From an uncultured Lentisphaeria bacterium (GTDB lineage: Bacteria > Verrucomicrobiota > Lentisphaeria > Victivallales > Victivallaceae): a stretch of DNA of 64,000 bases. Under the pieces are notes generated by a model that saw nothing but the letters and a program-made list of their open reading frames with translations, did not search any database and was not told the origin of the DNA. The DNA lies in contig CASFVA010000013.1 of the NCBI GenBank assembly GCA_949298075.1, forward strand, positions 1 to 64,000, read 5' to 3'. The translations under genes were made by a program, and so were the position numbers. This document shows, piece by piece, positions 22,252-42,431 of this stretch (within the stretch, counting starts at the first letter, position 1; each line of letters opens with the position of its first letter).

Positions 22252-24654
22252 TCACCGGGCCATCCGAGCCTGCCGGCTGAAAGTCGCGTCCCCGGTGCTG
22301 CCATCGGCATTGATCGGCCACTCGACGGTATCGACCGCATCCGGCCAGGTCACCGTCACTGTAACGCGGTCGGCGTCCCGCCGGGTCTGTACCGCCGGCG
22401 CGGCCTGATTCGCATGCAGGGGCACCAGCACCGCCGCAAAGTAGGGATTGACCGCCCGGACCGTGCTGAACAGCCGCTGCATGCTCAGCGGCGGTCGCGG
22501 ATTGGGCGGGAAATAAACCGCCGTCTCAAACTCCGGAACTTCCGAAGCGGCCGAGGAGAGGAAGATTTCCAGCCGGTCGTCCGCCGACGTCGGCGCCGGA
22601 CAGCTCCGCAGTTCCATGCCGCCCGAAACCGTCGCATCGGCAGGTTTAAGCAGGAATCCGTTCCGGACGGGTGAAAACGGCGTGCTGTTGTCATTGGAGA
22701 GATAAAGACCGTAAAACTCCGCTTCCTTCTCCCGGGTGGACACGACAATGCGATTGCGGCCGGCCCGCAGCCGCACCGGTACCGGCACCGGCTCCGACGG
22801 TGCCAGCGCATTGGCTTCTTTGGGGCGCGACAGCATGAACCACCACTCCTCGTTGGTATCGAGGCAGATCGGCTTCCCGTCGTTGATGGTGACCCAGACT
22901 GAATTGCTGGCCGGCTTGAATGCGCCGCCCGCCCGAATCAGCGCCCAGAGGGCGTAATCGCCATCGGCGGGAACATCAATCGTCCACTCCGCCCGGCCGT
23001 CAGGCCGGTTGGCCGGTGAGAAAAGATAACGGTCGGGAGCCTCGCATTTAGTCAGAACAGCACCGCCGGGACGGGTGGTGATGTACTTGTTGTTCGGCAC
23101 CACGACATTCCAGGTAAATTCGTCCTCTCTGCCGTACCGGAGAAAATCATCCAGCACCACCGCGTAGGCCGGGATATTTCCGGAAGGCCGGGCAAAAATC
23201 GTCTGGCGCACCACCCGCCGGGCTCCGGCGCCGCGTTTCTTGCGCTCGTTGAATTTGTAGGCCCGCGTGATGTCGGACCGCGAATACCCGTAGGCCTCCG
23301 AGTCGGAAAACCGGATCATCCTGCCATCCACCAGTCTGGGAGCCTGTCCCTTGCCGTTGGCCAGCACCAGATTGTGCGCGAAGCTGTTGCACCGGCTCTG
23401 CGGATGCGCGGGATCGTTGCCGTAACCCGAGTCCGGCAGCCACATGTCGCCGAAAGCATAAAGCGCAAAGCTGCCGCGGTCGGACTGCCCGTGACCGGCC
23501 GGCACCCCGGATGGATTCCGGACCGCCGGACCGGATTCAATCGAAAACATCACATCCCGGTCGCTCCAGCCGGTCCGCCACAACGCAAATTCCCGACCCG
23601 GGAAAAATTCGGATTTCGGCAGCCGGTCAAATTCCAGTTTCGCCGGCGGCGTTCCATGGGCCGCGATCAGCACATTGAGCGGAAAAGTCCGCATCTCGCG
23701 TTCGGAATGCTCCCACAGCCACATCGCGACCGGATCCTGATTGGCCACCGCCAGAAACAGGCACTCCAGCCCGGCCGTGGTATAGTCGTTGTCGTTGCGG
23801 GTATCAAAAAGATATGTCCCCGGAATCAGCTTGGCCACCAGGGCTTCCGGCAACTTGGCCAGCCGGGGGTTTTTGAAGATGTCCGGGCCGCCGGCTTCCC
23901 TCAGCAGCCATCCGAAAATCAGCAGACGCGGCGTCATGCCGTACCGGGCGTAACCGTAACCCTCGATGTACATGCCCTTGGGATCAAAAGCATGATTGAG
24001 CCAGCCGATCTGCGTCGACAGCACTTTTTCCAGCCGCTCGGCAAATCCGGGCCGGTCCCGGAAGTACAGCGCGGCCATTCCGGCCGGGGCGCCGTTGAGC
24101 GCGGTATGGTTGGCAGTGTGATAAAGACCCGACTTCGGGTTGTTGAAATGCTTCAGGTAGTCGTCGATGTAGCCGCCCAGCACATCAGCCAGCAGATCCA
24201 GATCGGCTTTGCTCATCAGGTCGCCGAAGAAAATGCAGCCCATCGCCATGCCGTAGGTGATGTGGCCGCGGGCGCCGGGCATACCCCGCTGAATATTGGG
24301 ATGCGACACCGGAAAATCCCGGGCGGTCTGCACCAGCAGCTCGATTCCCTTGTCGGCATATTTGCGGTCCCCGGTGATCATGTAGGCAAATCCCAGCTTC
24401 TCCATCCAATCGCTGAGCGGAATGCCAACCACCCGGGGCCAAAAACCGATGTCCCGTCCCCGGCCGGTGCCGTAGGTTCCCCTGGGATCAATGGCCCGGG
24501 CCGTTTTGAGGTAGTTGTCAGCCCGGCGCATCAGCAACGCATAATCCGGGTCGGCCTTGATTTTGGCAATGGTTTCCGGCGAGGGTTTGAACAACTCCCC
24601 ACCCGCGACGGCCAGAGCCAGCAGCATGGCCGCTATTGTCAGCGTTTTTTTCAT
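22252..24654 (-). CDS. Secreted heparinase II/III-like polysaccharide lyase with C-terminal carbohydrate-binding-like domain
   Basis: 800 residues. A signal peptide (MKKTLTIAAMLLALAVAGG) is followed by an alpha/alpha toroid (about 25-330; HTANHTALNG, DPKGMYIEGYGYARYG with the conserved tyrosines) and a beta-sandwich (about 340-560). The family histidines are present: GHGQSDRGSFALYA and NSFAHNLVLANG. Residues about 570-680 look like an inserted carbohydrate-binding sandwich (WTIDVPADGDYALWALIRAG). Such enzymes cleave uronate-containing glycans by beta-elimination; the exact substrate is unknown. The start at 24654 follows AAGGGG. It has its own promoter and an AraC regulator directly upstream, which is the likely controller. 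Confidence 0.8.
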   Translation of the reverse strand: MKKTLTIAAMLLALAVAGGELFKPSPETIAKIKADPDYALLMRRADNYLKTARAIDPRGTYGTGRGRDIGFWPRVVGIPLSDWMEKLGFAYMITGDRKYADKGIELLVQTARDFPVSHPNIQRGMPGARGHITYGMAMGCIFFGDLMSKADLDLLADVLGGYIDDYLKHFNNPKSGLYHTANHTALNGAPAGMAALYFRDRPGFAERLEKVLSTQIGWLNHAFDPKGMYIEGYGYARYGMTPRLLIFGWLLREAGGPDIFKNPRLAKLPEALVAKLIPGTYLFDTRNDNDYTTAGLECLFLAVANQDPVAMWLWEHSEREMRTFPLNVLIAAHGTPPAKLEFDRLPKSEFFPGREFALWRTGWSDRDVMFSIESGPAVRNPSGVPAGHGQSDRGSFALYAFGDMWLPDSGYGNDPAHPQSRCNSFAHNLVLANGKGQAPRLVDGRMIRFSDSEAYGYSRSDITRAYKFNERKKRGAGARRVVRQTIFARPSGNIPAYAVVLDDFLRYGREDEFTWNVVVPNNKYITTRPGGAVLTKCEAPDRYLFSPANRPDGRAEWTIDVPADGDYALWALIRAGGAFKPASNSVWVTINDGKPICLDTNEEWWFMLSRPKEANALAPSEPVPVPVRLRAGRNRIVVSTREKEAEFYGLYLSNDNSTPFSPVRNGFLLKPADATVSGGMELRSCPAPTSADDRLEIFLSSAASEVPEFETAVYFPPNPRPPLSMQRLFSTVRAVNPYFAAVLVPLHANQAAPAVQTRRDADRVTVTVTWPDAVDTVEWPINADGSTGDATFSRQARMAR

Positions 24655-24743
24655 TTTCCACCCCTTCTGCAATCTGCCTTAAAAACGGAAACCGCCGCAG
24701 AAACCGTGGTTTGATTATCTGCGGAGTTCCCGTGGTTCATGTT

Positions 24744-27724: not shown

Positions 27725-27759
27725 CAAAAAAAACTCCCGGCTTTCAAACGCCGGGAGTT
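27725..27759 (-). terminator. Terminator at the end of the minus-strand lyase operon
   Basis: AACTCCCGGC and GCCGGGAGTT form a 10-bp stem. On the minus strand the hairpin is followed by eight T, so it ends the operon coming from 37.7 kb; the plus-strand MDR transcript may use the same hairpin. Confidence 0.85.
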
Positions 27760-27805
27760 CAGATGCCACTACAGCCGTTGCGGCCGCTTTCTGCAGGCCG
27801 TCACA

Positions 27806-28339
27806 TCACTTGACCGCCGCCATCGTCACTTCCACCCGATAGGTTTCACCGGCCTGCATTTTGAGGTTGGTGCGCAGATACTGGTCGGGCGAAAACACCA
27901 CGCTTTTCGCGCCGTCAGCCGCCGTGATCACTTTGGGCTGGTTGTCCCGGGGTCCGGTAAAGCCGGCCGGCATGTTGTTCTTGAGGCTGATGTCGGCATT
28001 CGCCAGCAGCTCCCTGCCGTTGACTTTGAACGAAGTCACCGCCAGCGAGTCAGGGCTTTTCTTTTCCAGTCCGACCATGAAGCTGAGCCGGCAATCCGCC
28101 AGCGCCTTGAATTCGGCCACCCGGGTCTCAGGCTCCGCGCCCACTTTGAACGCCACCCACTGGCGGTTCGGATTATCCGGCTGGGATCCCGTCAGCCCGA
28201 AAGTTACCAGTCCCTCACCCTGAACCGCTTCATACTGTGCCGCCCCCTTGCTCCGGGTATCAATGATAAAACGGGTGCCGGCGTCAGCATGCAATCCCGC
28301 CGCCGCCAACGCCGCAACTGCAAAAAGCAACAATTTCAT
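27806..28339 (-). CDS. Small secreted protein, copy 3 of a tandem family of unknown function
   Basis: 177 residues. Signal peptide MKLLLFAVAALAAAGLHA, then about 160 residues predicted to be all-beta. Shared family landmarks are TRFIIDTRSKGAAQYEAV, GLTGSQPDNPNRQW, EFKALADCRLSFMVGL, SLAVTSFKVNGREL and a final QAGETYRVEVTMAAVK. I do not recognise the family; the shape is compatible with a carbohydrate-binding sandwich, which is inference from context. It is the last gene of the lyase operon, 21 bp after copy 2, and is followed by a terminator. Confidence 0.85.
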   Translation of the reverse strand: MKLLLFAVAALAAAGLHADAGTRFIIDTRSKGAAQYEAVQGEGLVTFGLTGSQPDNPNRQWVAFKVGAEPETRVAEFKALADCRLSFMVGLEKKSPDSLAVTSFKVNGRELLANADISLKNNMPAGFTGPRDNQPKVITAADGAKSVVFSPDQYLRTNLKMQAGETYRVEVTMAAVK

Positions 28340-28360
28340 GGTATTCCCTCCAGTTCTGGT

Positions 28361-28891
28361 TTATTTGCCCGGTTCTTCAGCCATGACAGCTTCCAGCCGG
28401 TAAGTCTGGCCTGCCTTCAGGTTAATTCCGGTAAGCAACGGTTTGTTGGCGAAAATCTTAAGGTATTTCGCACCGTCGGCCCCGGTGACCAGCAGTTCCT
28501 TGGCGCCATAGGCCCCGACCGGCAGACCGGTCTTGAGATTGATTTTGTCAAAGTTCAACATTTCCCGGCCGTTGACCTTAAGCGAAGTGACAGCCACCGA
28601 ATTGGTGACATCCTTGTTCAGGTCAATCAGCAGCCTCAGCCGGCAGTCCGATACAGCCTTGAATTCGGCAACATAGGTTCTGGCCTCCGGGGTCACATTG
28701 AACACCGCCCACTGCCGGTTGGGGTTGTCCGGTTGCGAATCCGTCAATTTGAATGTGACCAGTCCGTCGCCTTTGACCGCTTCAAACTGCGCCTCGCCTT
28801 TCTGCATGGTGTCGACAATGAAGCGCGTAACCACGTCAGCATGCAATCCCGCCGCCGCCACCACCGCCAGTGCAAACAACCAGAATTTCAT
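28361..28891 (-). CDS. Small secreted protein, copy 2 of the tandem family
   Basis: 176 residues. Signal peptide MKFWLFALAVVAAAGLHA, nearly the same as in copy 3. It keeps TRFIVDTMQKGEAQFEAV, SQPDNPNRQW, EFKAVSDCRLRLLIDL, VTSLKVNGREML and ends with a longer acidic tail (VMAEEPGK). It is the most diverged copy: the glycine/proline loop after the conserved lysine differs (INLKTGLPVGAYG) and the central asparagine-rich segment is changed. Function unknown. It lies 30 bp downstream of copy 1 and must be co-transcribed with it. Confidence 0.85.
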   Translation of the reverse strand: MKFWLFALAVVAAAGLHADVVTRFIVDTMQKGEAQFEAVKGDGLVTFKLTDSQPDNPNRQWAVFNVTPEARTYVAEFKAVSDCRLRLLIDLNKDVTNSVAVTSLKVNGREMLNFDKINLKTGLPVGAYGAKELLVTGADGAKYLKIFANKPLLTGINLKAGQTYRLEAVMAEEPGK

Positions 28892-28921
28892 GATAGCTTC
28901 TCCTGCCTGTTATAATTTTAT

Positions 28922-29455
28922 TTACTTGACCGCCGCCAATGTGACTTCCACCCGGTAGGTCTGGCCATTCTGCATTTTAATTGAGGTACTTAACATCTGT
29001 TCCAGGGCAATAACGACCCCGACAGCACCATCCGTCCCCTCAATTGCCCGCGGCGGATTGGCGCGCGGGCCATAGAATCCGACCGGCAATGAAGTCTTGG
29101 GATTGATTTCAGCATCGGCCAGCAATTCCTTGCCGTTGACTTTGAACGAAGTCACTGCCAGCGACTCCGGGGTATTCTTGTTGAGTCCGATCATGAAGCT
29201 CAGCCGGCAGTCCGCCAGCGCCTTGAATTCGGAAACCAGGGTGGTCGCCACAGATCCTACTTTGAAGCTCGACCACTGCCGATTCGGATTATCCGGCTGG
29301 GAACCGGTAAGTCCGTAAGTTACCAGTCCATCGCCGGTGACCGCCTCATACTGCGCCACTCCCGGTTTCCGGGAATCAATGATGAAACGGGCGCTGGCAT
29401 CCGCGTACACCGCCGTCGCCACCAATACTGCAACCGCCATCAGAAAAGCTTTCAT
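28922..29455 (-). CDS. Small secreted protein, copy 1 of the tandem family
   Basis: 177 residues. Signal peptide MKAFLMAVAVLVATAVYA; then ARFIIDSRKPGVAQYEAV, GLTGSQPDNPNRQW, EFKALADCRLSFMIGL, SLAVTSFKVNGKELL, and a C-terminus QNGQTYRVEVTLAAVK. It is closer to copy 3 than to copy 2. The start at 29455 follows AGGAGGTG; an open frame to 29509 lacks a site and would bury the signal peptide. It lies 50 bp after a lyase paralogue, so dosage and timing follow that enzyme. Function unknown. Confidence 0.87.
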   Translation of the reverse strand: MKAFLMAVAVLVATAVYADASARFIIDSRKPGVAQYEAVTGDGLVTYGLTGSQPDNPNRQWSSFKVGSVATTLVSEFKALADCRLSFMIGLNKNTPESLAVTSFKVNGKELLADAEINPKTSLPVGFYGPRANPPRAIEGTDGAVGVVIALEQMLSTSIKMQNGQTYRVEVTLAAVK

Positions 29456-29505: not shown

Positions 29506-31521
29506 TCACTTGAAATTAAGTTCATCAACCCCGCCGCCGATGTCGGCGGTCAGCCGATTGCCGTTCAGGCTGATCCGGTCGGTGCGGCCGGCCAGCTCGA
29601 CGGTCACGGCATCCGGACCGCCGGAACACTTGAACTGCGCGCCGGCTCCCGCCTTTTCCGGGAAAAACACGGTAGCCACGTTCCAGTCCGGAATCTTCTC
29701 CTTCGGATAAAGCTGCAGCTCAAAGCTGCTCCCCGGTTTGCCCTCATTGGCGCCGCCCGGCTCGTAGGAGTAGCGGGAATGGAAAATCGACGGCGAAATC
29801 CTGCTCTGCATCTCCCCGTCGCCGAAGGCGAAAATCCGCATTGTGGCCCGGGGCCGCGTCAGCTGCCAGGCATTGTCGCCGACCGCCTTGAATTGCGCCT
29901 TGCCGTCGAAGTTGTTGAAGTGGAAATAGCTGTCGAACCGGTGCGGTTTGTTTCCGGCAATCCGGTCAAACACCACAAAATAGCCGGGATCACGCACGTA
30001 AACCACCGCCCTCAGTGCGGTCGATAATTTCGGTTTGTAGCACTGAGCCGCTTCGGAGACAATCATGTCACAGTTTTTGCCGCTCTGCTCTCCGACTACC
30101 TCGGAGTGAGGCTTGCCGACCTCGCCGAAACTCCCCACCCGGTGGAAGAACAGCTGATTGCGGCCATCCACCGTGATGGCGTTGTTTGCTCGGGTAGTGA
30201 CATTCCAATCTTTGTGGACCTTGCCGCGGTAACTGGAGTGGCCGGGGGCCACCAGCAGATATTCGCCGTGAGCCGCCATGGCAATGCCGTTGCGAGCCGC
30301 CCGGTCGTGACCGAAGGGAACAACGGTGTCGCCGGAAAGCAGCACAAACACCGTACTGTCCGGAGTCCAGCCGCTGCGGATATAGTTTTCGCCGTTGTCA
30401 AAGCAGCGCAGCAGCGGCAGTTTTGCCGGATCCTCGCCCTTGGGCAGCTTCGAGGAAAGCATCAGCAACGTGAAATCCAGCGTCATCGGATTTACCTTGA
30501 AACCATGCTGTTCGGCAAAACCGACCGCGTACGGATTGCCGGTCAGAAACGCCAGCGTGTAAGACTCCGTGCCGCCAGGATTGACTTTCTGCTGACCGTC
30601 GCGCAGCATGATTTTCCAGATGAAGTCATCCTTGCTGGAAAACACCTGCGGGTAGACAATGTACTCAGCGGATTTGCCCATCGCGCTTTGGGTGAACACC
30701 GCTTTACGTTCTTCCGGACTCATCGCCGCCGCCGCTCCGCGCAACACTCCGGCCGGGTAGGAAAAATACTGGGGACCCTCGCCATAGCTGCCGTCTTTTT
30801 CAAAGCAGACGTCAAGATAGTTTTTGAGATGCATGGCCATACGGTCGGTGGTTTTGGGATCTTTCACAAACTTGGAAGCCAAATAAACCCCGTCGCCGAT
30901 TACCGCATACCAGTTGTTGATGTCTTTGCTCCGATACTTTTTTTCAATGAATTTCAGGCACGGACCAATGCCCTTTTCCTTAATGGCGGCATCGAGCCTG
31001 GCCCGCTCTTCAGCAGTAAAGCAGCGGTTGGCCAGGTCGAGGCCGGGAATGATCCGGTTGAGCATGTCCCCGGTCTGAAGCGATCCCATGCCCAGTTTGG
31101 CCATCTCAGGAAAACGCTCGATATGCAGCCAGTAGTTCAGCGGCCGGTCGGCCAGCTCCAGCGCCTTGTCGCGGATGAATTTGCCGACCTCCGGGTTGCC
31201 GGTCAGAAAATAGACCAGTCCGCTCGACTGGAACGTCACCCGGAAAATTTCTTCGGTGTAGTTACCGTTGCCACGCGGGAAAGAATTGGTATTGACCTGC
31301 TTCACCACTCCGCCGGCCATGCGCCGGAACAGTGCCTGCCCGGCCGGATCATTGGCACAGAAGTCCGCCAGCTTGCGCAGAAGTTCCGGTGTGTAAACCC
31401 GCGTTCCCTCCGCCGAAGCGTAAGCGTGCTTGAGGTCGATCTTGAGGTCTTTCTGCGACAGAGCCGAAGCGGTGAAAACCAGCCCCAGAACCATCAGCGC
31501 AGCCACAATGCTTTTTCTCAT
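29506..31521 (-). CDS. Secreted heparinase II/III-family protein, paralogue D
   Basis: 671 residues. Signal peptide MRKSIVAALMVLGLVFTASA, toroid domain to about residue 330 (NNWYAVIGDGVYLASKF; EKDGSYGEGPQYFSYP with the conserved DGSY...EG..Y), then a beta-sandwich. The sandwich has PFGHDRAARNGIAMAAHGEYLL and TTRANNAITVDGRNQ. In typical members the last segment reads HN.(V/I).VDG; here the histidine is replaced by asparagine, as in the other three paralogues, so the catalytic set may differ. The C-terminal 100 residues are almost identical to paralogue C, showing recent duplication. The start at 31521 follows AAGGTGG. Substrate unknown, probably a uronic-acid glycan. Confidence 0.85.
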   Translation of the reverse strand: MRKSIVAALMVLGLVFTASALSQKDLKIDLKHAYASAEGTRVYTPELLRKLADFCANDPAGQALFRRMAGGVVKQVNTNSFPRGNGNYTEEIFRVTFQSSGLVYFLTGNPEVGKFIRDKALELADRPLNYWLHIERFPEMAKLGMGSLQTGDMLNRIIPGLDLANRCFTAEERARLDAAIKEKGIGPCLKFIEKKYRSKDINNWYAVIGDGVYLASKFVKDPKTTDRMAMHLKNYLDVCFEKDGSYGEGPQYFSYPAGVLRGAAAAMSPEERKAVFTQSAMGKSAEYIVYPQVFSSKDDFIWKIMLRDGQQKVNPGGTESYTLAFLTGNPYAVGFAEQHGFKVNPMTLDFTLLMLSSKLPKGEDPAKLPLLRCFDNGENYIRSGWTPDSTVFVLLSGDTVVPFGHDRAARNGIAMAAHGEYLLVAPGHSSYRGKVHKDWNVTTRANNAITVDGRNQLFFHRVGSFGEVGKPHSEVVGEQSGKNCDMIVSEAAQCYKPKLSTALRAVVYVRDPGYFVVFDRIAGNKPHRFDSYFHFNNFDGKAQFKAVGDNAWQLTRPRATMRIFAFGDGEMQSRISPSIFHSRYSYEPGGANEGKPGSSFELQLYPKEKIPDWNVATVFFPEKAGAGAQFKCSGGPDAVTVELAGRTDRISLNGNRLTADIGGGVDELNFK

Positions 31522-31541
31522 GTTGACCACCTTGTTTTATA

Positions 31542-33563
31542 TTATTTTTGAGGGAAAGTCACATCATCAACCGTCCCGCCGATGTCGGCGGTCAGCCGGT
31601 TGCCGTTCAGACTGATCCGGTCGGTGCGGCCGGCCAGCTCGACGGTCACGACATCCGGACCGCCGGAACACTTGAACTGCGCGCCGGCTCCCGCTTTTTC
31701 CGGGAAAAACACGGTCGCCACGTTCCAGGCCGGAATCTCCTCCTTCGGATAAAGCTGCAGCTCAATGCCGGTTCCCGGCTTGGAGGCGTCGCCCACCTTC
31801 GGACTGTATGCGTAACGGGTGTGAAAAATCGACGGCGAAATCCTGCTCTGCATCTCCCCGTCGCCAAAGGCGAAAATCCGCATCGCGGCCCGGGGCCGCG
31901 TCAGCTGCCAGGCGTTGTCGCCGACCGCTTTGAACTGCGCCTTGCCGTCGAAGTTGTTGAAATGGAAATAGCTGTCGAACCGGTGCGGTTTTTCACCGAC
32001 CATCCGGTCAAACACCACAAAATAGCCGGGATCGCGCACGTAAACCACCGCCCGCAGCGCGGTCGAGAATTTCGGTTTGTAGCACTGGGCCGCTTCGGAG
32101 ACAATCATGTCACAGTTTTTGCCGCTCAGCTGACCGACCACTTCCGAGTGCGAGGGTCCCTCTTCACCGAATTTGCCGACCTTGCGGTAAAACAGCTGGC
32201 TGCGCCCATCCACCGTAATGGCGTTGTTGGCCCGGGTGGTGGCATCCCAGTCGGTATGCACCCGGCTCCGGTAGCTGGTGTGACCGGGGCCGACCAGCAG
32301 GTATTCGCCGTGTGCGGCAAAAGCAATGCCGTTGCGCGCCGCCCGGTCGTGGCCGAACGGCACAATGGTGTCACCGGAAAGCATCACGAACACCGTGCTG
32401 TCCGGCCCCCAGCCGCTGCGGATGTAGTTTTCACCGTTCTCAAAGCAGCGCAGCAGCGGCAGCGTCTCCAGCGGACGGGCTTCAGGGACCTGCGAGGAGA
32501 GCCGGATCAACGCAAAATCCAGCGACGACGGACGGAGTTCGAAGCCATGGGCCTCGGCAAAACCGACCGCCACCGGGTGGCCGGCCACCAGAGCCAGCAT
32601 CCAGGCGTCGCCGCTGCTGCCGCGTACCCGCTGCTGACCGTCGCGGAGCATGATTTTCCAAATGCTTTTCTCACCGCTCACAAAAACCTGCGGATAGGGG
32701 AAATATTCCGCAGACTTTGCCAGCGCGCTGGATTTGAACACCGCGTCCCGTTCCGCCGGCGTCATCGCCCCCGCCGCTCCCTTGAAGACCGAGAGCGGAT
32801 AGGTGAGGTACTGGGGACCCTCGCCGTAGCTGCCGTCTTTTTCAAAGCAGACTTCCAGATAATTTTTGATGTGCATAATGGCGCGTTCGGCGGCCTTTGG
32901 GTCGCGGATGAATTTGGCGCCGAGATAGACGCCGTTGCCGACGACAGCGTGATGGTTCTGCACGGACTTCTTGCGGTAGCCCTCCTCAAGGAACTTCAGG
33001 CAGGGGATCACCGCCTTGTCCCGGATGGCGGCATCGAGTTTGGCGCGTTCCTCCGGAGTAAAGCAGCCGTTGGCCAGATCAAGGCCGGGAACGCCCCGGT
33101 TGAGGATTTCACCGGTCTGCAGCTCACCCACGCCCCGCCGGGCGGTATTGGGATAACGCTCTTCATGCAACCAGTAGCCCAGCGGTTTGTCCGCCAGTTC
33201 CAATGCCTTGTCATGGATGAATTTGCCGACCTCGGGGTTGCCGGTCAGAAAATAGATCAGTCCGGTCGCCTGAAACGTCACCCTGAAAATTTCCTCGGTG
33301 TAGTTGCGGTTGGGAGGATAATCCCAGCTGTTCACCTGTTTTGCCGCGTCGGCCGCCATGCGCCTGAAAAGCGCCTGACCGGCGGGATCATTCGCGCAGA
33401 AATCCGCCAGTCTGCGCAAAAGTTCCGGCGTATAGACCCGCGTGCCTTCCGCCGCCGCGTACGCGTGCTTGAGATCAATTTTCAGCTCTTTGGGATTGAC
33501 CCGCTGAGCCGCCGTCAGACTCAATGCCGTCAGCACCGAACAGAACAACAGCAGTTTTTTCAT
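31542..33563 (-). CDS. Secreted heparinase II/III-family protein, paralogue C
   Basis: 673 residues. Signal peptide MKKLLLFCSVLTALSLTAA; toroid domain with NHHAVVGNGVYLGAKF and EKDGSYGEGPQYLTYP; sandwich domain with PFGHDRAARNGIAFAAHGEYLL and TTRANNAITVDGRSQ. As in its neighbours the HN motif is NN. It is the closest relative of paralogue D throughout, and nearly the same from the FHFNNFDGKAQFKAVGDNAW segment to the end. The start follows AGGAG. It sits 20 bp upstream of paralogue D and 28 bp downstream of paralogue B. Confidence 0.85.
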   Translation of the reverse strand: MKKLLLFCSVLTALSLTAAQRVNPKELKIDLKHAYAAAEGTRVYTPELLRRLADFCANDPAGQALFRRMAADAAKQVNSWDYPPNRNYTEEIFRVTFQATGLIYFLTGNPEVGKFIHDKALELADKPLGYWLHEERYPNTARRGVGELQTGEILNRGVPGLDLANGCFTPEERAKLDAAIRDKAVIPCLKFLEEGYRKKSVQNHHAVVGNGVYLGAKFIRDPKAAERAIMHIKNYLEVCFEKDGSYGEGPQYLTYPLSVFKGAAGAMTPAERDAVFKSSALAKSAEYFPYPQVFVSGEKSIWKIMLRDGQQRVRGSSGDAWMLALVAGHPVAVGFAEAHGFELRPSSLDFALIRLSSQVPEARPLETLPLLRCFENGENYIRSGWGPDSTVFVMLSGDTIVPFGHDRAARNGIAFAAHGEYLLVGPGHTSYRSRVHTDWDATTRANNAITVDGRSQLFYRKVGKFGEEGPSHSEVVGQLSGKNCDMIVSEAAQCYKPKFSTALRAVVYVRDPGYFVVFDRMVGEKPHRFDSYFHFNNFDGKAQFKAVGDNAWQLTRPRAAMRIFAFGDGEMQSRISPSIFHTRYAYSPKVGDASKPGTGIELQLYPKEEIPAWNVATVFFPEKAGAGAQFKCSGGPDVVTVELAGRTDRISLNGNRLTADIGGTVDDVTFPQK

Positions 33564-33591: not shown

Positions 33592-35625
33592 TTAAGGCAA
33601 ATTCAAATCGACATATTCCGCCGCGCCGCCGATATTGGCGGTCAGTCGGCGACCGGTCAGGTCGAAACGGTCCGTGCGGCCGGCCAGCTCCACCTGCAGC
33701 GAAACACCGTCACCCCGGCATTTGAAAGGAGCGTCCCTGCCGGCCTTCTGCGGAAAAAACGCCGTGACGACGTTCCACTTTCGGGATTTGTCCACCGGGG
33801 AAAGCTGCAATTCAAAACTGCTGCCGGGCTTGCCGGTCCGCGGACCGTCCGGACGGTATTCGTAAACGTGGTGCAGGATGCCGGGGTTGATCCGAACTCC
33901 GGTCGGCTCTCGGGCGGCAAAATAAGTACGCAGCGAGGCCCCGGGCCGGCTGTGCAGAAAATTGTTGGAATCCAGCTGGAGAAACCTGCCCTGATTGAAA
34001 AGGTTGCTGAAATGGAAATAGCTGTCAAACCGGTGCGGTTCCGGAGTTTCAATCCGGTCAAACACCACATAATATCCCGGATCACGCACGTAAACCACCG
34101 CCCGCAGCGCGGTTTCCACCGCCGGCTTGTAACATTTCGCCGCCTCGCTGGCCAGAAAATCAACCTTGTCCCCCATCCGGGCGGCCGCTACCCGGGCCAC
34201 CGGCGTGCCGATTTCGGAAAACGGCCCCTGCCGCACCGGATATAGCTGGCTGCGGCCGTCAATGGTGATGCAGTTGCTCCCCCTCGTGGTGTGATCCCAC
34301 TCCCGGCAGGTACGCCCGCGATAACTGGAGTGACCGGGATTGACCAGCAGATATTCACCGTAAGCGGCGATGACAATGCCGTTGCGAACCGGCCGGTCGT
34401 GGCCGAAACCGGGCTTGCCCGGTCCGCCGGAGAGCAGGGCGAACACCAGGCCGCCGTTGTCGAAATTTTCCCGCAGATAGACTTCGCCATTGGAAAAACA
34501 GCGCAGCCGGGGCAATTGATCGAGGCTGACCGGAACTATGTCGTTGTCGGCCTCGGCCCGCAGCAGATTCAGCAGCGGATTGAAGACCACCGCGCCGCGC
34601 CCGAACTTTCTGAAATACCCCGCCAGCACCGGATCCCGGCAGATCAGCATGAGCGCAGCCAGCGAATCGTTGGCGTGAGCGCGAAACTGGGCGTTGTCCC
34701 GGAAATGGGGACGGATGTAAAGGTCATCCTTTCCCCCGTTGAACACCATCGAATAGAGCGCATAGGTTCCGATTTTGCGGATCGGCCCCCGGTTGAACAG
34801 CTCATCGCGTTCCGCCGGAGTCAGCAGCACCGCCGCCCGTGTGAAATTGCTGACCGGATAAAGCAGATACCCCGGTCCCTCGTAATAACTGCCGTCGTCT
34901 TCCACACTGTGTTCAATCCAGCGCTCCAAATAGCCCACGGCCTCGTCAAACGCCGCCCGGTCTCCGGTGAATTTCGCCGCGTACATCATGCCGGTGGCAA
35001 TGTTGACCAGCCAGTTGTTGAATTTCCCCGGCTTCAGACAGCGTTCCCGGTAATAGCGCCGGCTCGGCTCAATGCCTTTAGCCTTCACCGCCCGGTTGAC
35101 CGCCTCCAGCTCAGATGCGGTGAAAGCGTCGCGGGCGAGATCGACCCCGCCGAGCAGGGAATAGAGCAGCTGCCCGGTCCGCAGGGTGGCAATGCCCTTT
35201 TCTGCATCATGGGGGAACCGTTCCTCGTGCAGCCAGAATCCCAACGGCCTGGCGACCACGGCCATGGTGCGTTCGCGGATGAAGCGGCCCAGCTCCGGAT
35301 TGCCGCTGAAGAGATAGATGAAGCCCGGCCGAATCAGATTCACCGCATAAATATATTCCTCGCCGTTCCGGGGAGTGAAATCCCCCCGATTGACCAGCTC
35401 GGCCGTCTCCTGACACCAGCGCCGGTAAATACGCCGGCCGGCCGGATCTTCAAGATAGAAGCGGGCGACCTTGCGAAGCGCGTCAGCCGGATAGAGGCGC
35501 GACAGCTCCGCCATTTTATCCGTCCGGTCAAGCCGGATCGCCAGATCCTCCGGGCAAAGCGCTGCCGCCGCTCCCAGCAGCGGCAGCGCAAGCATCGCCG
35601 CGATCAGACTGGCGCCAAATCTCAT
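33592..35625 (-). CDS. Secreted heparinase II/III-family protein, paralogue B
   Basis: 677 residues. Signal peptide MRFGASLIAAMLALPLLGAAAA. The toroid has FNNWLVNIATGMMYAAKF and EDDGSYYEGPGYLLYP; the sandwich has GFGHDRPVRNGIVIAAYGEYLL and TTRGSNCITIDGRSQ, where the usual histidine position is serine. It is more distant from C and D than they are from each other. The start codon overlaps the end of paralogue A by four bases (ATGA), which couples translation of the two. A secreted glycan lyase is the best call, with substrate unknown. Confidence 0.83.
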   Translation of the reverse strand: MRFGASLIAAMLALPLLGAAAALCPEDLAIRLDRTDKMAELSRLYPADALRKVARFYLEDPAGRRIYRRWCQETAELVNRGDFTPRNGEEYIYAVNLIRPGFIYLFSGNPELGRFIRERTMAVVARPLGFWLHEERFPHDAEKGIATLRTGQLLYSLLGGVDLARDAFTASELEAVNRAVKAKGIEPSRRYYRERCLKPGKFNNWLVNIATGMMYAAKFTGDRAAFDEAVGYLERWIEHSVEDDGSYYEGPGYLLYPVSNFTRAAVLLTPAERDELFNRGPIRKIGTYALYSMVFNGGKDDLYIRPHFRDNAQFRAHANDSLAALMLICRDPVLAGYFRKFGRGAVVFNPLLNLLRAEADNDIVPVSLDQLPRLRCFSNGEVYLRENFDNGGLVFALLSGGPGKPGFGHDRPVRNGIVIAAYGEYLLVNPGHSSYRGRTCREWDHTTRGSNCITIDGRSQLYPVRQGPFSEIGTPVARVAAARMGDKVDFLASEAAKCYKPAVETALRAVVYVRDPGYYVVFDRIETPEPHRFDSYFHFSNLFNQGRFLQLDSNNFLHSRPGASLRTYFAAREPTGVRINPGILHHVYEYRPDGPRTGKPGSSFELQLSPVDKSRKWNVVTAFFPQKAGRDAPFKCRGDGVSLQVELAGRTDRFDLTGRRLTANIGGAAEYVDLNLP

Positions 35626-37658
35626 TTCAATTCCTTTCCGGGCCGGAGCATTCCCGACGGAAAGTCAACTGTCTCGATTTTTCCGCCAATATCGGCAGTC
35701 AGCCGGCCGCCATCCAGCGTGAAACGGTCGGTACGGCCGGGCAGCCGGACGGTGAGAGTACGGCCGTCGCCGTCGCATTCGGCATTCAGGGACTGCCCTT
35801 TGGGCGCCGGGAAAAACGCGATCACGCCATCGAGCCTTCCGGCCGTCGGGTCCGGCGTCAGGCCCAGCTCAAAACTGGTTCCCGGCCGGTTGATCCGCGG
35901 GTCGTCCGGGCGGTAGGTCGGTTCGCGATGCATGACGCCGGGATTGATCTGCGAAGAGAAAGGCTGGGCGGCGGCGAAAAACACCTCCAGATCCGCCTTC
36001 GGCCGCTCCAACCGCCAGCGCCGGCGGTCCACGGCGGTAAACTTGCCCTTCTTGTCGACGTTGTTGAAATGGAACCACGAGGCAATCTCACTGCCGGGCG
36101 CCGCCGCAAACCGGTCGAACACCACAAAATAACCGGGATCGCGCACAAAAACCACCGCCCGCAGCGCCTCCCGTACCGGTTTCGGATAGCAACCGGTGGC
36201 GTCCGAGACGATGAAATCACAAAGCCGTCCGGTTTCCGCGACCAGCACCCGGGCTTCGGGAATCCCCTTCACACCGATATCCGCCACCGCTTCCGGAAAC
36301 AGCTGATTGCGGCCGTTCAAGGTGATGCAGTTGTTGGCCCGGGTGGAGGTGTCCCAGTGTGAATAGGTCCGGCTCCGGTAACTGGAACTGCCCGGCGACA
36401 CTACCAGATATTCACCGCAGGCGGCCAGCATGATGCCGTTGCGGGCCGGCCGGTCATGGGAGAAACCGGTGCGGTTGCGGCCCCCGGAGAGCAGGCCGAA
36501 GACCGCGCCGTCATCCTCCCAACCGCTGCGCAGATAGGTCTCGCCGTTGTTGAATGCCCGCAGCCGCGGCAGGCCGGTCACGGAACCGGCTTCCGGCAGC
36601 GGCAGCGCCGCCTCGAACAGGGCGAGATCCAGGGATATGTTGGGACGGGACTTGAACTTCCGGAAAAATCCGATGGCGGCAGGTTCCTGATACATAATTC
36701 CGAGCAGCCAGCTCGCCGCGCTGGCCGGCGGACCGAACTGCATTCCATCCCGGAACATGAGGCGGATGTAAGTGTTCTCAAACCGCGACAGCACCGCATT
36801 GTAGCAGAGATATTCCCAGGACCGGGCCAGATTGCTGTTTTCCAACACGTCGCGGCGCTGCTCCGGAGTCATGATCGTCACTGCCTGGGACAGCACCGAC
36901 ACCGGGTAAGTCAGATAAGAGACGCCTTCACCGTAACTGCCGTCGTCTTCGATGCATTCCGAAGTATAGCGCCTGATGTGGCCGACCGCCTCTTTCACGC
37001 CGGCCCCGTCGCCGAGCAGTTTGGCCGTGTACAGCATTCCGGAACCGACCACCAGATACCAGTTGTTGATGCTCCTGGCCCGGGAACGGGCCTTGAAGAA
37101 ATTCCGGATCGGCATCAGGCCCTTGGTGCGGAGCGTCTCCTCCAGAAACCGCTGTTCCGCCGGAGTGAAAAGTTCGCGACCCAAGTCCAGTCCCATCGCG
37201 AAGTTGTGCACCAGATGCCCCGTGATCAGTGTGGCGATCGGATGTTCGGGGTTGAACTTGAACCGGCTTTCATGCATCCAGAATCCCATCGGCCGCCGGG
37301 CGATGTCGAGCATCTTGTCGTGCAGGAATTTTCCGATTTCGGGGTCTCCGGTCAGAAACCAGATCCACGCCGGCCGCTGAAACAGCAGCGCCGAGATGTA
37401 GTCCTTGGTGTTTTTGCCCATCCGGAAATCGCCGGCGGCGGCATCCCGGGCGGCGGCGGCGGCCAGCGACCGGAACGCCTTCTGCCCGGCCGGATCCTCG
37501 GCATAAAACCGGGCCGCTTTCCGCAGTACCTCGGGTTCAAACAATTTCGACTGTTCCGCCAGCCGGTCCGCCCGCTGCAGATCGATTTTCCACTCTTTGG
37601 CCGACGCCGCCGCAAGAGTCAGCAGCATGGCGGCCAAAAATACAGTCAGAAGTTTCAC
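35622..37658 (-). CDS. Secreted heparinase II/III-family protein, paralogue A (operon head)
   Basis: 678 residues, starting with GTG at 37658 (or the GTG directly before it) after GGGGAGGG; the frame is open to 37799 but the extra residues would hide the signal peptide (VKLLTVFLAAMLLTLAAASA). Toroid: INNWYLVVGSGMLYTAKL and EDDGSYGEGVSYLTYP. Sandwich: GFSHDRPARNGIMLAACGEYLV and STRANNCITLNGRNQ, again lacking the usual histidine before the asparagine. It opens a run A-B-C-D followed by three small secreted proteins, all on one strand with gaps of 50 bp or less. No clear promoter is seen in the 65 bp before it, so it may be read from the regulator gene. Confidence 0.83.
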   Translation of the reverse strand: MKLLTVFLAAMLLTLAAASAKEWKIDLQRADRLAEQSKLFEPEVLRKAARFYAEDPAGQKAFRSLAAAAARDAAAGDFRMGKNTKDYISALLFQRPAWIWFLTGDPEIGKFLHDKMLDIARRPMGFWMHESRFKFNPEHPIATLITGHLVHNFAMGLDLGRELFTPAEQRFLEETLRTKGLMPIRNFFKARSRARSINNWYLVVGSGMLYTAKLLGDGAGVKEAVGHIRRYTSECIEDDGSYGEGVSYLTYPVSVLSQAVTIMTPEQRRDVLENSNLARSWEYLCYNAVLSRFENTYIRLMFRDGMQFGPPASAASWLLGIMYQEPAAIGFFRKFKSRPNISLDLALFEAALPLPEAGSVTGLPRLRAFNNGETYLRSGWEDDGAVFGLLSGGRNRTGFSHDRPARNGIMLAACGEYLVVSPGSSSYRSRTYSHWDTSTRANNCITLNGRNQLFPEAVADIGVKGIPEARVLVAETGRLCDFIVSDATGCYPKPVREALRAVVFVRDPGYFVVFDRFAAAPGSEIASWFHFNNVDKKGKFTAVDRRRWRLERPKADLEVFFAAAQPFSSQINPGVMHREPTYRPDDPRINRPGTSFELGLTPDPTAGRLDGVIAFFPAPKGQSLNAECDGDGRTLTVRLPGRTDRFTLDGGRLTADIGGKIETVDFPSGMLRPGKELK

Positions 37659-37723
37659 CACGTTCCCTCCCCGTTGTAAGCGCCCGGAAAATCGCTGGAA
37701 TCCGCCGGGCCGTTTGCGGTTGA

Positions 37724-38704
37724 TTAAATCGAATAGATTTTCGGACTCATGTAAATCCGGCGGGCCGCCCGGCCCGGATAACGAACCCGACGCATACACT
37801 CCTCCGCGGCCAGCGCTCCGGCCAGCCGCCAGTTGATGGCAATTGTCGGCATGTCGATGTTGCGGGCATCGTAGGAGAACATGGTCTTGCCGTCGATGCT
37901 GAGCAAGGTGAGATCGTCTGCCATCCGGACCCCGGTGATCCGTTCATATTTAGCGAGACTGGCGACGGTGCTGTTGCCGTCGACAAAGAGATAGCCCGAC
38001 GATTTGTCGTAGGGCATGTCGCCGTCTTCATCGCAAAAATCGACTTCTCCGCCGAGACTGCGCCAGCGTTCAGCAAAAAGTTCGGCACGCAGCCGGAAAT
38101 TCTGCCGGTCGCCGGGTATCACCATCACCCGTTCAAAACGTTTTTTGCGGAAAAAGTCGCACGCCAGTTCCGCCGCCCGGAAGGGATCAATGTCAATGAG
38201 CGAGAACAAGCCGTCATACGAGTTGTGCATGCCCAAACCGACACAGGGTACGCCCAGCGCCGGCGCGGTCATGTGCGCGTCATAGCCGCCCAACATGATC
38301 AGCCCTTCAAGTCCTTTGGAAAATTCCTCAATGTAGGCGTCATTGATGAACCTCACCATGACATTCCGGATCTGAAAGCCGAGATCCGCCGCCCGGTCCT
38401 CGACACCGAGCAGAGCCAGTCCGGAGTAGGAATGCTCCGCCGCCCGATGGTCGATGGAACATACCACCCCGATCACGCAGGGATCCGGCAGCCGCTGAGA
38501 GGTCGCCACATAGGTTCCGGAGCCGTGCCGGAACTCCAGCAGTCCACGCTGCACCAGCCGGTCAATGCCGCGCCGGGCGGTGTTCATCGAAACCCCGAAG
38601 CGGTTCATGAGTTGGCGAAGCGACGGTATTTTCTGTCCGGGCGCATAGCTCCCGCAGATAACCCTCGCCTCGATGGAACGAATCATCTTGTCGCCTTTGT
38701 GCAT
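37724..38704 (-). CDS. GntR-type regulator with LacI-like sugar-sensing domain
   Basis: 326 residues. Residues 1-70 form a GntR winged helix (IRSIEARVICGSYAPGQKIP, SLRQLMNRFGVSMNTARRGI, LVQRGLLEFRHGSGTYVA). From about 77 onward it is a periplasmic-binding-protein fold as in LacI/GalR (CVIGVVCSIDHRAAE, GLEGLIMLGGYD, VPCVGLGMHNSYDG, and a DDLTLLSIDG segment). This combination (AraR-like) typically represses sugar genes until a sugar binds. It lies directly upstream of the lyase operon on the same strand and very likely controls it. The start at 38704 follows GAGGAG. A terminator sits just upstream of its ribosome site. Confidence 0.88.
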   Translation of the reverse strand: MHKGDKMIRSIEARVICGSYAPGQKIPSLRQLMNRFGVSMNTARRGIDRLVQRGLLEFRHGSGTYVATSQRLPDPCVIGVVCSIDHRAAEHSYSGLALLGVEDRAADLGFQIRNVMVRFINDAYIEEFSKGLEGLIMLGGYDAHMTAPALGVPCVGLGMHNSYDGLFSLIDIDPFRAAELACDFFRKKRFERVMVIPGDRQNFRLRAELFAERWRSLGGEVDFCDEDGDMPYDKSSGYLFVDGNSTVASLAKYERITGVRMADDLTLLSIDGKTMFSYDARNIDMPTIAINWRLAGALAAEECMRRVRYPGRAARRIYMSPKIYSI

Positions 38705-38733
38705 GAAAGCCACTCCTCTCTGGTGGAACCCGC

Positions 38734-38757
38734 AAAAAGGCCGGTTTCCCACCGGCC
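38734..38757 (-). terminator. Terminator between the FAD oxidoreductase and the GntR-type gene
   Basis: On the minus strand GGCCGGT and ACCGGCC-like arms close a 4-5 base loop and are followed by TTTTTGCG. It leaves only about 30 bp before the regulator start, with no room for a full promoter. Confidence 0.7.
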
Positions 38758-41690: not shown

Positions 41691-42431
41691 ATGAAAACCA
41701 CACGGTTCTCTCTTGCTGAACTTCGGGCGGAGACTCCCCGCTGTCGCTTTACTCTGATCGAGCTGCTGGTGGTGATCGCAATCATCGCGATTCTGGCCAG
41801 CATGGTCATGCCGGCGCTGGGTTACGCCCGGGCTTCCGGACGCCGGGCCGAATGCATCAACAACAAACACCAGCTCGGGCTGGGCGCACTGCAGTACGCC
41901 CAGGACAATGCCGGACTGCTGGGCTATGAAATTGACGGTAATCCCTATGCCTACGCGCTCAATGGCAAAAAAACTGATTCCAAGCAGTATCTGCCGGACA
42001 AAACGCTGATCTGCAACCTCGCCACCGAGCAGAAACTCGACGCTACCGGATCCAACGCCGTGGGCATGCTCAACGCCACCGAGACCGGCGGCTGGTACAC
42101 CACCGAAGTCATCGGTGACTTCGGGCGGTTCCGCCACGTCAAAGACACCACCACCGCTTATTCGCTGGAAAAAATGAAGAATCAGAGCAATCTGGTGCTG
42201 TTCGCCGATACCTATAAACAGGCCAGCGGAACAGATTCCGGCAGCACTTACTGGAGCTTCATTCCCAATGCCGGCGACAACGACGCCTATGTCACTACGA
42301 TTCACCTCGACACCTCGGTGGTGGCCTTCGCCGACGGCCGGGCCGAAGCGCTTTCGCCCGGACAGCTTGAACAGAATGCCACCAAAATCACCAAGACGCT
42401 CAAAGAGAGTCTGGCTGAACTCAACAAATAA
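41691..42431 (+). CDS. Prepilin-type pseudopilin with H/DG C-terminal domain
   Basis: 246 residues. An unusually long leader (about 18 residues) precedes [20 protein letters not shown], the prepilin peptidase site and hydrophobic helix with the conserved glutamate. The C-terminal part has the [20 protein letters not shown] segment, the H-x9-DG signature of the DUF1559-type pseudopilin-like proteins. These are exported via a type II/IV pilus-like pathway and are highly expanded in Lentisphaerota. No assembly genes adjoin it, and it is a single-gene transcript with its own terminator. Confidence 0.85.

Follow-up and report, generated by a model that had tools for sequence, protein, structure and literature searches.

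Three consecutive genes at the end of a presumed lyase operon in an uncultured gut Lentisphaeria bacterium code for small secreted proteins (A, B and C) that are probably freestanding, circularly permuted carbohydrate-binding modules (CBMs) of the CBM4/9 type, which would aid the lyases in trans. Profile comparisons place them in a family whose two halves stand in the reverse order to those of CBM_4_9 (PF02018). The wider proposal, that a permuted CBM4/9 family occurs in Lentisphaeria and neighbouring phyla on many carbohydrate-active enzymes (CAZymes) and has been freed as tandem, trans-acting operon subunits, stands in our judgement at about even chances.

Three secreted proteins at the end of a presumed lyase operon

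The initial annotation of the window (the whole stretch of 64,000 nucleotides that was analysed) had described three consecutive genes of 176-177 codons for secreted proteins with common landmarks, lying at the end of a lyase operon behind four heparinase-like lyase genes, with gaps of 21-50 bp. This description was confirmed, with the correction that all three lie on the minus strand (Table 1). The three open reading frames (ORFs) share 55-66% pairwise identity, and signal peptides are recognizable by sequence on all three. SQPDNPNRQW is identical in A, B and C; at 10 columns no other invariant run is as long, and its length exceeds the expectation from shuffled columns (P = 0.0125). The segment EFKAxxDCRL and a terminal TYR(V/L)E strand were also found. 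Each protein contains exactly one Cys, at the same position (in DCRL), where most relatives have Gly. The gaps ahead of A, B and C are 50, 30 and 21 bp, and a clear Shine-Dalgarno (SD) sequence precedes every one of the small genes. For protein A, a GTG-initiated ORF reaching 29509 was regarded as an over-extended call, and the shorter frame was preferred. A terminator lies just past the trio.

Table 1. Features of the presumed operon in the window, in order of transcription
Feature	Coordinates	Strand	Remarks
GntR-type regulator	37724..38752	-	PF00392, E 2.2e-16; first gene of the presumed operon, before lyase 1
Heparinase II/III-like lyase 1	35622..37661	-	679 aa; PF07940, E 2.2e-7
Heparinase II/III-like lyase 2	33592..35625	-	677 aa; PF07940, E 5.6e-12
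Heparinase II/III-like lyase 3	31542..33563	-	673 aa; PF07940, E 7.4e-13
Heparinase II/III-like lyase 4	29506..31530	-	674 aa; PF07940, E 2.6e-15; without N-terminal module
Small secreted protein A	28922..29455	-	177 aa; first of the trio; SD AGGAGG; member by family profile
Small secreted protein B	28361..28891	-	176 aa; complete ORF; member by family profile
Small secreted protein C	27806..28339	-	177 aa; AlphaFold2 pLDDT 90.8; member by family profile
Intrinsic terminator	27731..27760	-	11-bp stem and T run; strong; directly 3' of the trio, closes the operon

The lyase genes are spaced by 11 bp, 28 bp and a 4-bp overlap. All four of their products score above the curated cut-off of Hepar_II_III_C (PF07940; 31-57 bits vs 24) and, like the trio, carry signal peptides. 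The start of lyase 1 is probably the GTG at 37661, which is preceded by the SD sequence GGGGAGG. The regulator shows a weak LacI-like sensor domain (PF13377, E 0.0017, below cut-off). Relatives of the lyases in the PDB are weak, an example being the oligo alginate lyase 3a0o (E 9e-9). Assignment of the window lyases to the glycosaminoglycan (GAG) lyases of PL35 was considered from the description in PMC11262172 and was not adopted. A diet of sulfated GAGs seems less likely, because a single sulfatase was found in the whole genome; this is weak evidence. The genome contains 19 heparinase II/III matches (E < 1e-7) compared with 0-8 in 40 sampled relatives, an expansion of lyases. One further heparinase II/III-like protein (806 aa, weak PF07940 match of 25.2 bits) is encoded in the window outside the operon, at 22252-24672 on the minus strand.

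Retention of three diverging copies had been taken as a sign of different ligand forms. No support was obtained for this idea: the dN/dS values between the copies (0.25-0.37) indicate net purifying selection, that is, ordinary constraint only, and no sign beyond ordinary divergence was seen.

Homologues of the trio

The trio had initially been left without a known family. As single sequences A, B and C indeed gave no significant match in Pfam and NCBIfam, but profiles link them to a wider family, related to CBM_4_9 through circular permutation. In the bacterium's own genome (2.3 Mb, 87% complete), the homologues comprise the N-terminal 190 residues of two heparinase II/III-like lyases (865-876 aa) encoded on contig C63 and a second trio on contig C23. 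The C63 module is 30-31% identical to the trio and by profile its direct homologue, and the lyase part of these fusions is 34-35% identical to window lyase 4 over the catalytic part. The C63 lyases belong to a second operon (L007, 1994-11547) with four heparinase II/III-like lyases, two of them carrying the module. The C23 trio (L008, 9552-11349) consists of small secreted proteins of 191-199 aa; it has no CAZyme neighbours and sits between the genes for a PMT/TPR membrane protein and a PHP-type protein. In the tree the eight own-genome members formed one clade (support 99/98) and the window trio a clade of its own (100/100). The branch leading to the trio is long, with 1.82 changes per column, and the C63 modules are its nearest outside rows. 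Shortened own-genome members, which do not contain the middle NGdFE segment, were seen at L065 9539-10060 and 14321-14869 and at L068 992-1486.

With a profile built from the eight own-genome members, homologues matching over the full length were detected in 13 of the 60 relatives searched. Conversely, a profile made of relatives only, with the own genome left out, recovered the trio at full length and in native order (E 7e-12, 1e-9 and 3e-6), and hhalign aligned the own-genome set with the relatives over the full length with unchanged order (probability 99.6%). The family is present in 15 of 115 genomes across the phylum; its named members are from ruminant-gut Lentisphaeria, and MAGs of Verrucomicrobiota, Planctomycetota and Omnitrophota supplied single loci. 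A search of the PDB sequences with the trio-only profile gave no match. Matches of the family profile to Klotho and beta-klotho covered about 35 residues and were disregarded.

Order of the two halves relative to CBM_4_9

The consensus of the relatives reads W..F.F.P..DG...DDv.v.G and then NGdFE...gW...G...v...Q.i.v.aG..vt.sf, whereas in CBM_4_9 the NGdFE...W half comes first and is followed by the W..F.F.P..DG...DDv half. The chain would thus be permuted, with the C-terminal half of the usual CBM4/9 module first and the N-terminal half second. Native sequences of the relatives align to PF02018 as two crossed pieces and score at best at the borderline (28.0 and 25.6 bits, curated cut-off 25.9). 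Doubling the sequence yielded one continuous match (86-215 to profile positions 2-121, E 1.2e-8), and two other doubled relatives gave E values of 6.7e-12 and 4.2e-12. When relatives were permuted as single copies, their matches to PF02018 followed the usual order, and the scores were much the same or a little higher.

In a circular-cut scan, cuts were tried against a separate in-house CBM_4_9 profile of 28 domains. For the relatives the score peaked at a single boundary (103.4 vs 80.5 for the native order, which aligned as two crossed pieces), with one full-length alignment of 1-135 to 1-126. The own-genome set, which included the trio, rose from 33.7 to 50.4 when cut between VTSFKVNG and RELLANA, and the three window sequences alone showed a small gain (34.5 vs 30.9). 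The solved chain 8xmz_A was matched by the family profile in the same crossed order as PF02018. That the family is a circularly permuted homologue of CBM_4_9 is well supported by these comparisons. As native single sequences the trio gave no PF02018 match at the cut-off of 25.9 bits, nor did protein B, the sole window protein tried in this way, when doubled and permuted. Because of this, and of the weak signal from the trio alone, the homology and the permutation proposed for A, B and C rest on profiles and family membership, not on single-sequence matches.

Proposed role of the trio

The free proteins would serve the window lyases in trans just as the C63 lyases are served in cis by the fused module: they may bind a uronic-acid polysaccharide, or enzyme and polysaccharide, and so hold substrate and lyase together. 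Sugar binding, the ligand and a physical or functional partnership with the four lyases are what we infer here. A glycan-binding role, as put forward in the initial annotation, has gained real but indirect support through the fusion of the permuted CBM_4_9-related family to many CAZymes.

The trio sequences show no obvious aromatic binding face of the typical kind. Each protein has one Trp compared with 2-7 in most relatives, NGdFE is replaced by LLANADI-type and gW by AGF/VGA-type sequences. Since most of the Trp residues and the NGdFE and gW motifs have been lost, a serious rival is that the proteins have ceased to bind sugar or have turned to docking on proteins, altered or lost binding being the main one. 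The proteins would then be CBM-derived subunits which no longer bind sugar and which dock on the lyases to stabilise or assemble them, perhaps cross-linked through Cys. Besides the missing aromatics and motifs, the long branch and the single Cys shared by A, B and C are in favour of such a role; the Cys is absent, however, from the fused C63 relatives and from the C23 trio and hence is no general feature of the module. We regard docking without sugar binding as unlikely, though deserving attention, and prefer trans-acting binding modules.

If the proposed role is true, the C63 lyases and the window operon offer a natural comparison of cis and trans arrangements with homologous lyases, in which the value of tethering could be tested directly.

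Enzymes carrying or adjoining the module

Fusions of the module were seen with GH5 cellulase, GH13 amylase, GH28, GH42-like, BNR-repeat and beta-helix proteins and with PcRGLX-type (rhamnogalacturonan lyase-like) proteins; it mostly stands at the N-terminus and in others at the C-terminus. Altogether 22 members in the sampled loci lie inside ORFs of more than 340 aa, many of them recognizable CAZymes. Stand-alone members adjoin GH9 or GH13 enzymes and large secreted proteins, some of the latter with Laminin_G_3. A large same-strand neighbour was found for 15 of 34 stand-alone members and for 23 of 110 other ORFs (p 0.013), the background being ORFs of similar size from the same loci, spurious ones included. 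This pattern of fusions and neighbours matches the behaviour of CBMs and may be taken as indirect evidence of binding; attachment to CAZymes holds for the family and the direct paralogues, while the trio itself is stand-alone.

The initial annotation had named two points to be looked at: occurrence of the family beside lyases in other genomes, and a location of homologues mainly away from polysaccharide genes, which would have spoken against a role on glycans. In other genomes the module is fused to PcRGLX-type proteins and many CAZymes; about half of the stand-alone relatives, like the C23 trio, have no large enzyme-like neighbour. The second point applies in part, to the C23 trio and some other members. 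Several stand-alone members have housekeeping genes as neighbours, and a module triplet in the genome G045 stands alone. These cases would fit surface or envelope proteins of Lentisphaeria (coat, adhesin or attachment proteins) with a CBM-like fold, which came to lie beside lyases by chance as the operon grew. Taking into account the members inside large ORFs, many of them CAZymes, and the excess of large same-strand neighbours, we consider this rather improbable and retain the interpretation as binding modules.

An order-level relative has its own, independent tandem array of three stand-alone module genes (L046 8319-10251). Secreted proteins of about 950 aa occur beside the module at L045 844-3774, L047 2939-5779, L048 587-3475, L052 6560-9451 and L059 5919-8849. 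They share a conserved stretch, EWDEENENT, and some have Laminin_G_3 C-termini; they lack a catalytic Pfam match, the members checked gave no match in NCBIfam or the PDB, and they may represent a glycoside hydrolase family not yet described. Prepilin-type [15 protein letters not shown]-termini were noticed in ORFs at window positions 41748 (+) and 5426 (-), and recur next to module-bearing genes in many related loci.

Predicted structure

The early description of the trio as small secreted all-beta proteins made with the lyases holds. AlphaFold2 predicted a complete all-beta sandwich for protein C (pLDDT 90.8, pTM 0.84) and likewise a complete all-beta domain for one relative (pLDDT 94.1, pTM 0.89). 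The best solved match of both models was 1ajk, an artificially permuted GH16 lichenase with a jelly-roll fold (Z 8.2 over 121 residues at 3.5 A for protein C, a borderline value, and Z 7.8 over 129 residues at 3.6 A for the relative, both within the chance range). It was followed in both cases by concanavalin A-type lectins with Z near 6. Foldseek returned no PDB match with E below 0.001 for either model; its top rows, adaptor and adhesin folds with TM under 0.2, were set aside. The fold check advised at the outset gave confident all-beta models with solved matches of Z 5-8 only, the link to permuted CBM_4_9 coming from the profiles. Because such Z values can arise by chance, being at the level expected of unmatched models, the structural matches are consistent with the assignment but no proof of it.

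The apparent permutation might instead be produced by the alignment, the family being a beta-sandwich of other descent that resembles CBM_4_9 only locally. This reading would suit the modest single-sequence scores (20-30 bits), the weak signal of the window proteins alone and the absence of a clear solved-structure match, but it is slightly less probable still than surface proteins, since two separate alignments each have their highest score at one cut that makes structural sense and the crossed order was obtained independently with Pfam, the in-house CBM_4_9 profile and PDB 8xmz.

Relation to known modules

With CBM_4_9, which covers the jelly rolls of the CBM4, CBM9 and CBM22 type in CAZy, the family has in common that it is a secreted, predicted beta-sandwich located on or beside CAZymes and that both halves of the profile are recognizable. 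It differs in that its termini fall between the usual halves; moreover, the trio remains below the cut-off and is encoded by stand-alone genes rather than as parts of enzymes. The N-terminal module of the C63 lyases is homologous to the trio but fused to the lyase where the trio is separate.

Neither CBMs nor circular permutations that link CBM families are new. Montanier et al. (JBC, 2010) are said to have related the CBM36 and CBM60 families in this way. These are calcium-dependent binders of another group, a precedent by virtue of the permutation and not shown to be homologous to the trio. The CBM36/CBM60 work is cited in PMC4725902. A permuted CBM4/9 family was not found described in the literature searched, most subscription journals being outside the reach of that search. 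If the assignment is true, standard annotation misses a whole family of modules, whose members are held below the CBM_4_9 threshold by the permutation, and the overlooked module sits on cellulase, amylase, pectin-degrading and lyase-type enzymes of ruminant-gut and other Lentisphaeria.

Two further families gave weak matches with relatives of the trio. CBM60 matched one doubled relative (E 0.0002). DUF642 (PF04862) matched two relatives after doubling, at E 1e-6 and 5e-8, which is consistent with a common beta-sandwich ancestry; the trio itself gives no such match, and with the relatives the match improves only on doubling, as was the case with CBM_4_9.
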